The notes below the pieces were generated by a model. That model saw nothing but the letters and a program-made list of their open reading frames with translations. It was not told the origin of the DNA and searched no databases. Source: Candidula unifasciata (Eukaryota; Mollusca; Gastropoda; Stylommatophora; Geomitridae). Taken from it: a stretch of 64,000 nt of DNA. The position numbers were made by a program, and so were the translations under genes. The stretch lies in assembly GCA_905116865.2 (NCBI GenBank), contig CAJHNH020005979.1:209501-273500 (forward strand), read 5' to 3'. Shown piece by piece: positions 27,871-29,777 of this stretch; position 1 is the stretch's first letter; each line of letters begins with the position of its first letter.

Positions 27871-28517
27871 TTCTTCCCCCCTCTCTCCCTCCCCCTCTCT
27901 GTATCTCTCTCTCTTTCTTCCCCCCTCTCTCCCTCCCCCCTCTCTGTATCTCTCTCTCTTTCTCACGCCCCCTTACCCACCTTACTAACTTACTCACACT
28001 TCCAGTATGTTTATATATACAGTGTATATATGTTCATTCTATGATATTGGCCTTCTCATTCCAGTTGGTGACTCCAGTTTTTGTAGGTCTGCCTGTTATT
28101 TTCTTGTGCTCTGCTCTCATTCAAATACTGTTCGCAGTTTTTATCTTTCTATATTTATATGCTAAAATCACTGCAGTATATTAACTCTCATGATATCAGT
28201 TGTTAGTGGTGATTTAAGATTTAAATAGGTTATGAATTATTTGTTGCTTCTCACTCTCCATTCTCCGCTGTTTGCATCATTGATGAAATCTTCCAGTAAT
28301 AAATTTTTCTTTCGTTTGACTTCTCTGCAGCTATGCTGGCATGTCTGACATAGTGGACCACTTCTTCCCGGCGCTGGACAAAACAGACCGGGGAACTTTC
28401 ATGGAGTTCAACGACACCAACTACTGGCGCGACCCCATTCCTTGCATCGACAACAGTGAGCTGGCTTTGTTATCCACTTCCAGCCACCCCAGTCCAGAGC
28501 CGGTGGAGAAGAAATGA
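2799..28517 (+). CDS. LPIN: Lipin, Mg2+-dependent phosphatidate phosphatase (15 coding exons)
   Basis: Lipins dephosphorylate phosphatidic acid to diacylglycerol at ER membranes and also act as nuclear co-regulators (family knowledge). Joined exons: 2799-2984, 4322-4420, 5676-6181, 7399-7589, 9120-9258, 10004-10273, 13178-13247, 18976-19152, 20284-20378, 21707-21917, 22819-22967, 23917-24156, 25236-25344, 26694-26797, 28331-28517. They total 2733 nt, 910 residues plus TGA, close to vertebrate lipin 1. All introns are GT..AG and phases agree. N-LIP is residues 1 to about 105, with NPATL and SPFHVRFGK. LATSP at 101-105 matches the phosphorylated serine region known from mammalian lipin 1. A polybasic segment at about 164-176 fits an NLS/PA-binding patch. 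Exons 5-6 carry a middle region (GGIYLDDL, LSLCGGL). C-LIP has the catalytic DIDGT (691-695), LGQIL (702-706) and ends soon after YWRDPIP. The start is the first ATG of a typical lipin N-terminus. Which vertebrate paralogue it matches cannot be assigned. Confidence 0.96.
2985..4321 (+). other. Lipin intron 1
   Basis: A 1.3-kb GT..AG intron. It contains a reverse-oriented SINE-1 fragment around 3430-3620. The 170-codon open frame at 3418-3930 overlaps that repeat and shows no protein family. The remainder is unremarkable AT-rich sequence. Confidence 0.7.
3430..3620 (-). mobile_element. SINE-1 fragment
   Basis: Reverse complement of the SINE-1 body defined by the copy at 54143-54416: the GGTCTATAAAA-like, GACCACATCA-like and CCCGGGAAGTAAA-like blocks occur in the right order. 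Diverged and lacking its head. Confidence 0.5.
4322..4420 (+). CDS. LPIN: Lipin coding exon 2 (N-LIP)
   Basis: 33 codons, phase 0 at both ends, acceptor tctctttcag and donor gtgagt. The translation begins VDIEINGEP and contains GEAFFVQE, core N-LIP sequence. It joins directly to exon 3 (..ESEDE/NFPDYLATSP). Confidence 0.95.
5676..6181 (+). CDS. LPIN: Lipin coding exon 3 (LATSP site and polybasic tract)
   Basis: 506 nt, starting in phase 0 after gatttcag and ending in phase 2 before gtaggt. It encodes NFPDYLATSPLP, then a Ser/Asp-rich low-complexity linker with a Lys/Arg cluster (KPRRKVFKKKKQK) and an acidic SSDDDE patch. These match the order of elements in other lipins. Confidence 0.93.
6262..6800 (-). 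repeat. GAAG-tailed dispersed repeat expanded into a 106-bp tandem triplet
   Basis: The block reading catgatctt recurs at 6294, 6400 and 6506, exactly 106 bp apart. The unit contains the 3' part of the dispersed repeat (ACAACCAGAACTTTC.. and ..GCCGGTGAATGC in reverse). The 5' part of the same repeat continues to about 6800 with a C14 run. It lies in lipin intron 3. Confidence 0.7.
6900..7098 (+). mobile_element. SPIN/URR1-like hAT MITE, right end missing
   Basis: It begins CAGCGGCCCTCAACCTTCC and continues with the ACCCTTTAATACAGT and TTCATGTTGTGGCGACCCC blocks characteristic, as I recall, of non-autonomous SPIN (Buster-group hAT) elements. The right end fades after GGGTCGTTTGACCC without the terminal AGGTTGAGAACCGCTG. 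The preceding 8 bp, tgctagag, fit the nnnTAnnn target pattern of Buster elements. Lipin intron 3. Confidence 0.7.
7399..7589 (+). CDS. LPIN: Lipin coding exon 4 (variable linker)
   Basis: 191 nt, phase 2 in and phase 1 out, acceptor tgatatctgcag, donor gtgagt. It begins SPMWSRPATPKSD and is a low-conservation linker. Inclusion is supported by phase agreement with both neighbours. Confidence 0.85.
7590..9119 (+). other. Lipin intron 4
   Basis: A 1.5-kb intron. At 8335-8455 a roughly 32-bp unit (CAGAATCAGATGCACTGATACA-like) is repeated about four times. A reverse-strand open frame at 8521-8790 (89 codons, KHTFSEWVIETVTLS..) has a protein-like composition but no family I recognise. Nothing else is supportable. 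Confidence 0.5.
9120..9258 (+). CDS. LPIN: Lipin coding exon 5 (middle region)
   Basis: 139 nt, phase 1 in and phase 2 out, acceptor cattacag, donor gtaagt. It encodes GGIYLDDLANLEDPE, a motif typical of the lipin middle domain. The codon across the exon 5/6 join is Arg (CG/G). Confidence 0.92.
10004..10273 (+). CDS. LPIN: Lipin coding exon 6 (M-LIP-like)
   Basis: 270 nt, phase 2 in and out, acceptor ataatttcag, donor gtaagg. It contains ALSLCGGLNES and ITLDKFMQKVVTFEDLAEN, matching the conserved segment before C-LIP in animal lipins. Confidence 0.95.
10378..10530 (+). repeat. Dispersed repeat D (CTGCGATATTT..GGGGCCC)
   Basis: The order GCGATAT, CATCTGATTTCAGCAAA, CATGCTTAT and ATGGGGCCCC is shared with about 32300-32405. 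A shorter piece is at 33428-33490. It is a multicopy interspersed repeat of unknown class. Confidence 0.45.
10519..10542. repeat. Poly-C run
   Basis: About 24 consecutive C in lipin intron 6, one of more than a dozen C/G homopolymers in the window. Its exact length should not be trusted. Confidence 0.8.
10735..11338. repeat. 28-bp minisatellite with 56-bp higher-order unit (part 1)
   Basis: Two alternating 28-bp monomers, one with GTAGCACTGAACCAGTATATCC and one with GTAGCGCTAAACCAATGTATCC, form a 56-bp dimer repeated about ten times. The array continues at 12950-13125 after a LINE interruption. Lipin intron 6. Confidence 0.9.
11339..12949 (-). mobile_element. LINE-A: 5'-truncated non-LTR retrotransposon with reverse transcriptase
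   Basis: A 434-codon open frame (12760-11456) encodes reverse transcriptase blocks: IIIPILKKGD, HRGISLL, FLDLEKAFDKV, SGVRQGDILSPYLF, the catalytic FADDVALIA (YADD-box equivalent) and KYLGIVL. The N-terminal RT segment (KAAGHDGIT) is in another frame up to about 12955, and the C-terminal WFGHVCRM.. region shifts frame near 11560, so it carries at least two frameshifts. The 3' end (low coordinate) has a (TAAG)n tail. The 12 bp CACTGATATAGC flank it at 11327-11338 and 12950-12961, suggesting a target-site duplication. RTE-like by motif style; the clade is inferred. Confidence 0.88.
12950..13125. repeat. 28-bp minisatellite (part 2)
   Basis: Continuation of the 10735-11338 array on the other side of LINE-A, ending about 50 bp before lipin exon 7. 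Units here are less regular (CTGAACAGAAATATCCACTGA variants). Confidence 0.85.
13178..13247 (+). CDS. LPIN: Lipin coding exon 7
   Basis: 70 nt, phase 2 in and 0 out, acceptor tttgcag, donor gtgagt. It encodes KYYNWATAGPMVLSQIVF, a well conserved lipin segment. It lies just after a 28-bp minisatellite carrying a LINE insertion. Confidence 0.94.
14000..14190 (+). mobile_element. SINE-1-like fragment
   Basis: A tRNA-like head region (TAGCG.., then CCTAGTGTTCAGATCTGGG) is followed by a body with GAGTATCAGGTGATGTC, GTAAAGGTGGCTG and GTCTAGCATC. This order matches SINE-1 (GGGTACCCGGTGCAG.., GTAAAGGCCGCTGG..). Strongly decayed. Confidence 0.4.
14955..15540. repeat. Degenerate TGGTCTGTTTAATGTG minisatellite
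   Basis: The phrase TTTTTGGTCTGTTTAATGTG followed by GGTCTGTCTGCCTTTGTTG recurs about ten times with irregular spacing of roughly 50-65 bp. Lipin intron 7. Confidence 0.7.
17255..17740 (-). mobile_element. LINE-X reverse transcriptase 3' fragment
   Basis: Reverse-strand translations in several frames read ATYGCESWTLS, LRIPWTKKKKNTDIL, LRYFGHVK and ELAREKETFRPAVKRMTFCKG. These are the same blocks as in the + strand copy at 58062-58504. Multiple frameshifts make it inactive. Confidence 0.75.
17972..18535 (+). mobile_element. Probable hAT MITE with an inner SINE
   Basis: The left side reads CAGTTTTCCATATGGTGGTCCACAG.. and the right side, in reverse, reads TAGTGGTTCCTATTAAG..CCTGTGGCCCAC. These resemble the imperfect terminal inverted repeats of hAT MITEs. 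Inside (about 18130-18470) is a tRNA-like head with TCCCGGGCTCC and a GGGAAGTAAGATTGGACC body. Confidence 0.4.
18976..19152 (+). CDS. LPIN: Lipin coding exon 8
   Basis: 59 codons, phase 0/0, acceptor gtattccag, donor gtatgg. It encodes PVVKSLEKEHMPKKE then a lysine run and GWFSWARS, equivalent to the KxxRWWFSW segment of other lipins. Intron 7 before it is 5.7 kb. Confidence 0.94.
19153..20283 (+). other. Lipin intron 8
   Basis: 1.1 kb of AT-rich intron. A small open frame (19873-20076) reads like noise. No repeat or RNA gene recognised. Confidence 0.6.
20284..20378 (+). CDS. LPIN: Lipin coding exon 9 (Ser/Pro linker)
   Basis: 95 nt, phase 0 in and 2 out, acceptor ccttcag, donor gttagg. It encodes a Ser/Pro/Thr-rich linker (SPSQSPSSTPPGS). 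It is weakly conserved in the family and could be alternatively used, although skipping it would break phase. Confidence 0.85.
20379..21706 (+). other. Lipin intron 9
   Basis: 1.3 kb. It contains GT-rich microsatellite stretches at 20398-20490, a G-rich run at about 21080 and short T runs. The segment 20750-20880 looks like a repeat border, but I could not assign it. Confidence 0.55.
21707..21917 (+). CDS. LPIN: Lipin coding exon 10 (entry to C-LIP)
   Basis: 211 nt, phase 2 in and 0 out, acceptor taatgcag, donor gtgagt. It ends with KYIKTLRLSSEQI, the canonical start of the lipin catalytic region. Confidence 0.94.
21954..22213 (+). repeat. GAAG-tailed dispersed repeat, copy in lipin intron 10
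   Basis: Near full-length copy of the most abundant repeat here. Block order: GAAACAAGAATAGACCCACT, CATGTCGTAAGA, GGGGGCTTCTTTCGAAGT, CATCGGCCTGAGA, CAGTCTGCATACA, GATGTGCACACA, TGAAACAAGACT and CAACCAGAACTTTCTGC. Other copies share the order and usually end in GAAGAAGAAG. Confidence 0.75.
22255..22425 (+). mobile_element. SINE-1 copy with tRNA-like head
   Basis: The head contains TGGTGCAGTGGCGAGACTC (A-box-like) and GGTCATGGGTTTGAATTTG (B-box-like). The body has GGTACCAAGAACAGTCCTGTG and AAGTAAAGGC. Lipin intron 10. Confidence 0.55.
22505..22800. repeat. 40-bp minisatellite
   Basis: About seven tandem copies of a 40-bp unit containing ATCAGAGCAGGCATAAAACA and CTTGTATTTGCTGTG. The last units degenerate towards the acceptor of lipin exon 11, which itself begins cagAGCAAGATGAAG, similar to the unit (cagagcaggat). 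Confidence 0.85.
22819..22967 (+). CDS. LPIN: Lipin coding exon 11 (DIDGT catalytic motif)
   Basis: 149 nt, phase 0 in and 2 out, acceptor tttttcag, donor gtatgt. It encodes SVTTQYQGT, VYLWNFDDK and ISDIDGTIT. DIDGT is the DxDxT motif of HAD-type phosphatidate phosphatases, with the first Asp as predicted nucleophile (residue 691). Confidence 0.97.
22985..23345. repeat. 26-bp minisatellite after lipin exon 11
   Basis: About 13 irregular copies of a 26-bp unit containing GAATGTGTGGGTTGGTGGG and TGAGGAT. It starts about 20 bp after the exon 11 donor and is strongly purine/GT-biased on the + strand. Confidence 0.85.
23917..24156 (+). CDS. LPIN: Lipin coding exon 12 (LGQIL motif)
   Basis: 240 nt, phase 2 in and out, acceptor after a T10 tract (cttcag), donor gtaagt. 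It encodes SDALGQILPIIGRDW with an LxxIL co-regulator motif, then KLIYLSARAIG and LNPTSLFSAFHR, all C-LIP hallmarks. Confidence 0.97.
24535..24865 (-). repeat. GAAG-tailed dispersed repeat, reverse copy
   Basis: Reverse-complement order of the same blocks: CAGCTGTAAATTTTGGTGG.., GCAGACTGTTGGTTTCTTGCC, TTAGTCGTCTCCTGTGACA, CGGAGCCCATATGGGGG. A G17 run sits at 24784-24800. Lipin intron 12. Confidence 0.7.
25236..25344 (+). CDS. LPIN: Lipin coding exon 13
   Basis: 109 nt, phase 2 in and 0 out, acceptor cttttcaag, donor gtaagt. It encodes EVILKNPEEFKI and PFYAGFGNKFN of C-LIP. The acceptor AAG is weaker than CAG, but phase and homology are unambiguous. Confidence 0.96.
25420..25445. repeat. (TA)n microsatellite
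   Basis: Short TA dinucleotide run in lipin intron 13, shortly after exon 13. Confidence 0.6.
25628..26265. repeat. 71-bp minisatellite
   Basis: Nine copies of a 69-71-bp unit beginning AGCTTTGTTCACCTCACTCT and ending CATGCCTCTGTGGGTTCC. The unit has no stops in two frames of + strand, producing spurious ORFs. Lipin intron 13. It is immediately followed by a GAAG-tailed repeat. Confidence 0.92.
26266..26525 (+). repeat. GAAG-tailed dispersed repeat
   Basis: Same block order as at 21954: AGAATAGACCCAATG, AGGCACGTTGTAAAAG, TGCCTGAGAAGCAAGG, GACAGTCGGCTG, ACAACCAGAACTTTCAGCTG, then GCGAAAAAGAAG. It abuts the 71-bp array. Lipin intron 13. Confidence 0.75.
26694..26797 (+). CDS. LPIN: Lipin coding exon 14
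   Basis: 104 nt, phase 0 in and 2 out, acceptor ctccacag, donor gtaagt. It encodes DVIAYRALNIPSYRIFTINP, matching the lipin DVxAY..VG(V/I)P..RIFTVNP segment. Confidence 0.96.
26983..27290 (-). mobile_element. LINE reverse transcriptase C-terminal fragment
   Basis: The reverse-strand frame reads LVTMEMRRLRKTVGVTRR, KIRNEVIRDKVG, IKWFAHLERMP and GRPGTRWEDN. This is the C-terminal tail of a LINE RT distantly like LINE-A (YLRKV..VTRRDKVHNQTIRQDL). Truncated on both sides. Lipin intron 14. Confidence 0.75.
27370..27396. repeat. Poly-G run
   Basis: G-rich tract of about 25 bases with a single interruption, in lipin intron 14. Confidence 0.7.
27777..27965. repeat. (CT)n microsatellite
   Basis: About 190 bp of CT/CCT low complexity in lipin intron 14. 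It generates long Ser/Leu and Arg/Glu pseudo-ORFs on both strands. Confidence 0.95.
28331..28517 (+). CDS. LPIN: Lipin terminal coding exon 15
   Basis: 187 nt, phase 2 in, acceptor ctctgcag. It encodes YAGMSDIVDHFFPAL and YWRDPIP, then a short tail ending VEKK and TGA at 28515-28517. The stop falls about where lipins normally end. The codon after it is CTG and the same frame stays open (see 28518-29777). Confidence 0.96.

Positions 28518-29777: not shown

Follow-up and report, generated by a model that had tools for sequence, protein, structure and literature searches.

The open frame behind the lipin stop codon

The stretch of DNA analysed here (the window) covers 64,000 nucleotides of a contig of Candidula unifasciata and carries a lipin gene on its forward strand. 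The exons of this gene yield the annotated 917-residue Candidula lipin (P0004), in which Lipin_N, Lipin_mid and LNS2 domains were all found above the Pfam cut-offs, and which ends normally in SPEPVEKK at a TGA codon. The last exon continues without an intron into a further segment that stays open in the lipin frame and is here called the extension. The features that concern this segment are as follows.

28515-28517, + strand: lipin TGA stop, the proposed readthrough site, in the context GAG AAG AAA TGA CTG CAG
28518-29774, + strand: in-frame extension of 419 codons, kept as protein
28734-28736, + strand: first ATG of the extension, its codon 73
29658-29774, + strand: last 39 codons of the extension, including HSVNF
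29775-29777, + strand: TAG closing the extension
31388-31393, + strand: first AATAAA 3' of the lipin stop

The positions bear out what the first-pass annotation had seen, namely a TGA-CTG at the lipin terminus followed by 419 sense codons up to a TAG. The other frames are closed, as was claimed there; over the segment the frame of the extension holds no stop, and each of the five others holds from 14 to 48 (18 and 48 in the other forward frames; 30, 14 and 21 on the reverse strand). The frame was likewise confirmed to be open beyond chance: starting at a given point, 419 codons without a stop have a probability of 1.5e-10 by the segment's own stop-triplet frequency and 2.3e-11 using nearby non-coding DNA, while open runs in 2000 first-order Markov resamples reached 234 codons at most. 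Codons 73-419 have a lipin-like codon use, with a log-likelihood of +6.6 against a null mean of -61.1, a value that none of 3000 non-coding draws attained. Within the genome the extension matches a single site, and a query with a relative gave one match, at the same place, among the best candidates that were scored. A sequencing or assembly error creating the TGA is unlikely, as the EKK end of lipin is common to Bradybaena and five other lipins.

Conservation of the extension as protein

When some 5.8 billion proteins were searched, among which the Candidula extension has its own record (P0001), homologues were found in a 414-residue protein from an 'lgn' contig of 1,967 bases (P0002; 49% identity over 99% of the extension) and in a 416-residue 'hypothetical' protein of Bradybaena similaris (BsWGS_24442, P0003; 45% identity over 91%). 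These two are 86% identical to each other (325/379). Since the segment aligns with both over nearly its full length it is no accident, and this homology together with the probabilities given above rules out a chance open frame. Conservation in relatives, which had been named as the check on the frame, was thus found at the protein level in two other sequences. On these sequence comparisons, a coding function of the segment is well supported.

Conservation sets in about 7 codons past the TGA, 66 codons ahead of the first ATG of Candidula, and does not differ in strength between this part and the rest. Identity to P0002 is 57% in codons 7-36 (16/28) and 47% in codons 37-72 (17/36), or 33 of the 64 aligned residues over codons 7-72, and lies between 35 and 85% in six later segments. 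The part ahead of the ATG aligned to P0002 with a score of 136, where 2000 shuffles reached a maximum of 41 and the other frames gave 25 and 21. The last 39 residues are the same at 33 positions (85%) in comparison with each relative, and all end at the same stop. No start codon is common to the three sequences; the M73 of Candidula is Lys in both relatives, the Met which these have in common corresponds to Val37 in Candidula, and no ATG is found in any forward frame from the TGA to codon 73.

Nine Cys are invariant in the three sequences (43, 66, 96, 99, 210, 281, 284, 313 and 315). The Cys cluster that the first-pass annotation had pointed out is present, with C281, C284, C313 and C315 all invariant, but the third Cys of its CxxCxxxC, C288, lies in a stretch that the relatives do not have. 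The extension diverges faster than the main open reading frame (ORF), with identities of 54 and 52% as against 91% for lipin, and in P0003 a nine-residue repeat has expanded to 7 units by a simple pattern which occurs 0 times in the Candidula extension.

Routes to a translated extension

The route that fits best, and that we consider reasonably probable, is readthrough of the lipin UGA. By this route a near-cognate tRNA would sometimes decode the UGA as an amino acid, so that, besides the normal lipin of 917 residues, a minor isoform of 917 + 1 + 419 = 1,337 residues would arise; the lipin mRNA would extend through the segment, and UGA-CUG would have to be leaky enough. The segment is likely part of the lipin mRNA, because the first AATAAA past the stop comes at 31388. 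Entry from the lipin frame is the simplest explanation for a constraint that begins within about 7 codons of the stop in sequences that share no start codon, and the conserved codons ahead of the ATG, together with the unshared start, speak more for translation past the stop than for a second, independent gene. The earlier proposal of readthrough is upheld in part, in that the coding segment is conserved in the proteins of two relatives, whereas readthrough itself is what we infer from it.

The UGA is followed by C, and the full context reads UGA-CUGC. TGA-CT had been called the leakiest context known in animals, which is only partly right; UGA-CUG would be leaky in kind, but the efficient mammalian motif is given as UGA-CUAG (PMC4132726). 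Selenocysteine insertion was rejected, as no family of selenocysteine insertion sequence was among the Rfam matches with expectation values (E) up to 5 in 27000-36000; the matches to snoR12 and TUG1_3 fell below the gathering scores and were ignored. An RNA stem was sought as a stimulator of readthrough and none was found.

Several observations weigh against this route. The CUAG motif is incomplete after the UGA, and no stem-loop was detected at the stop (z -0.27 and +0.82). By themselves, codons 1-72 show no significant codon use, since 7.7% of the 3000 draws from non-coding DNA scored as high. A profile built from the three sequences yielded no further species. No lipin fused with the extension was among the 120 of 168 matches listed, none of which aligned over more than 21% of the query region. 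In Bradybaena, BRAKER3 made the segment a separate gene, and the records of both relatives, known as protein records alone, start with Met. ORF calling yields a Met at the start of a record anyway.

In Bradybaena, lipin is known from its protein record (BsWGS_24446, P0005), which ends at the same EKK. The numbers of BsWGS_24442 and BsWGS_24446 are 4 apart and the contigs of both have 63,384,139 bases. They are likely neighbouring genes; the clusters behind the Bradybaena records have 4 and 2 members.

An independent protein encoded by a second cistron, with a start of its own and forming no part of lipin, is an improbable alternative. Its translation could begin by reinitiation, from its own promoter, or at a non-AUG codon such as the CTG after the TGA, and conserved bicistronic mRNAs are known, as in RPP14-HTD2 (PMC5932603). 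The separate Bradybaena gene with its initial Met would agree with this, and the lack of any ATG from the TGA to 28734 would suit scanning. Nevertheless, codons 7-72, all of them ahead of the sole early ATG, are conserved like the remainder, and the AUG of the second ORF is not conserved among the three sequences. A TATAAA at 28632, about 100 nucleotides ahead of the ATG, might be taken for a promoter element, but it encodes Tyr-Lys in Candidula and Tyr-Val in the relatives and so, judged from the protein, would not be kept.

Alternative splicing, which we hold to be equally improbable, would bypass the TGA by connecting an acceptor within the extension to an exon further upstream, either one of lipin or an unseen 5' exon. 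The coding exons of lipin and the best acceptor-like site are the following.

2799-2984, + strand: lipin coding exon 1
4322-4420, + strand: lipin coding exon 2
5676-6181, + strand: lipin coding exon 3
7399-7589, + strand: lipin coding exon 4
9120-9258, + strand: lipin coding exon 5
10004-10273, + strand: lipin coding exon 6
13178-13247, + strand: lipin coding exon 7, found via the P0004 sequence, its ends hand-counted from the DNA
18955-19152, + strand: lipin coding exon 8
20284-20378, + strand: lipin coding exon 9
21707-21917, + strand: lipin coding exon 10
22819-22967, + strand: lipin coding exon 11
23917-24156, + strand: lipin coding exon 12
25236-25344, + strand: lipin coding exon 13
26694-26797, + strand: lipin coding exon 14, whose donor phase permits in-frame splicing into the extension
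28331-28517, + strand: lipin coding exon 15, the last
28668-28669, + strand: acceptor-like AG inside the extension that keeps the frame after exon 14, score 10.4

Two bases are left over at the end of exon 14, and splicing to an acceptor before 28670 would complete their codon and keep the frame; the score of this acceptor falls within the range given by leave-one-out scoring of 13 lipin acceptors (-5.6 to 16.7). Three weaker acceptors, before 28532, 28574 and 28643, also keep the frame (-3.3, -4.0 and -1.2), and one before 28524, with a score of 2.3, is in phase with exon 13. However, use of 28670 from exon 14 would lose codons 1-50, including the conserved codons 7-50, as well as the last 62 residues of lipin with their conserved YWR motif. 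The pyrimidine run there encodes Val-Phe, which is Pro-Thr and Pro-Ile in the relatives. The Bradybaena annotation was made by BRAKER3 with RNA sequencing (PMC12042801) and has no fused form among the matches listed.

A very improbable alternative is adenosine-to-inosine editing, which would change the UGA of some mRNA molecules to UGG (Trp) and lead to the same protein. Nothing beyond the frame speaks for it, and no strong duplex is predicted around the stop.

The extension and its gene among known systems

The EKK before the lipin stop (28506-28517) is identical in 7/7 euthyneuran lipins outside the sacoglossans (Candidula, Bradybaena, Biomphalaria, Aplysia, Bulinus, Physella and one further record, all among P0004-P0023), while most of the preceding residues vary. 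Lipin ends in PKQ in 4/4 records of the Elysia/Plakobranchus type, and nine other gastropod records end differently. Residues 881-907 of P0004, in exon 15, gave a sub-threshold Pfam match to WRNPLPNID (PF15017, E 0.012). Elsewhere in the window, a minisatellite of nine 71-bp units (97% match; 25631-26262) lies within a lipin intron and one of ten 45-bp units (90%; 29879-30342) just 3' of the extension. The open frames at 11456-12778 (- strand, 440 codons) and 61066-61581 (+ strand, 171 codons) resemble, by eye, the remains of reverse-transcriptase elements, and at 45447-46027 both strands of a repeat array are open (PGCSCIYES and NQDFHKCM units).

The extension is acidic and rich in Ser and Cys, and is probably a largely disordered regulatory tail. 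Its net charge is -18 (-31 and -37 in the relatives), its Ser content is 13.8%, and the three sequences have 16, 16 and 15 Cys. No Pfam family matched the extension at E up to 10; P0002 had one sub-threshold match to fn3_3 (E 0.15) and P0003 none. No relatives of solved structure were found (best E 2.1 by sequence and 0.37 by profile), and AlphaFold on the three sequences was uninformative, with a mean predicted local distance difference test score of 26.5. As for function, the conserved last 39 residues would bind a partner and so alter the location or phosphorylation of lipin, which is the weakest step of the proposal. HSVNF occurs in all three proteins, and such a motif arose in 213 of 5000 shuffles; it fits a relaxed PP1-docking pattern, and is a lead only. 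In lipin-1, the N-terminus is the part that reportedly binds PP1c. The SVNFW with which the extension closes was rejected as a second copy of the NYWR motif from the lipin C-terminus, as 474 of 2000 shuffles scored as high.

If readthrough is true, lipin has a second isoform that can be tested directly, and readthrough that is specific to one gene and adds a large segment arose in molluscs too, on a central lipid enzyme. The segment was omitted by the Candidula annotation, the gene prediction of which is described in the genome paper (PMC8496239), and was called a separate hypothetical gene in Bradybaena. We further suggest, tentatively and with more doubt than confidence, that land-snail lipin may be made in two forms by way of a built-in leaky stop, that it may be the first functional readthrough gene of a mollusc, with a 419-residue regulatory tail, and that the EKK ending may mark a readthrough context older than land snails.

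As an Mg2+-dependent phosphatidate phosphatase the upstream gene is an ordinary lipin, and the matches listed held no extended form of it. RPP14-HTD2 resembles the snail locus in having a conserved second protein ORF 3' of the main stop, but in the snail this ORF is in the same frame, its conservation sets in just past the stop, and the three sequences have no start codon in common. Mammalian OPRL1, OPRK1, AQP4 and MAPK10 likewise have UGA followed by CU (PMC4132726), whereas the next base in the snail is G and the extension is far longer than that of MAPK10, which has 13 residues. The readthrough genes of Drosophila and Anopheles are similar in that an in-frame second ORF conserved as protein comes right after the main stop, and their extensions, as in the snail, diverge faster than the main ORF, are prone to disorder, are without Pfam domains and sometimes reach several hundred residues (PMC5100048, PMC4999894). 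Of the species tested earlier, most insects and one crustacean showed abundant readthrough, and none outside Pancrustacea did (Jungreis 2016, PMC5100048); molluscs are not mentioned in the text of that paper, and no mollusc nuclear case was among the literature matches listed. The snail differs from the flies and mosquitoes in being a mollusc, outside Pancrustacea, and in that its case comes from protein comparison, with no RNA structure found.

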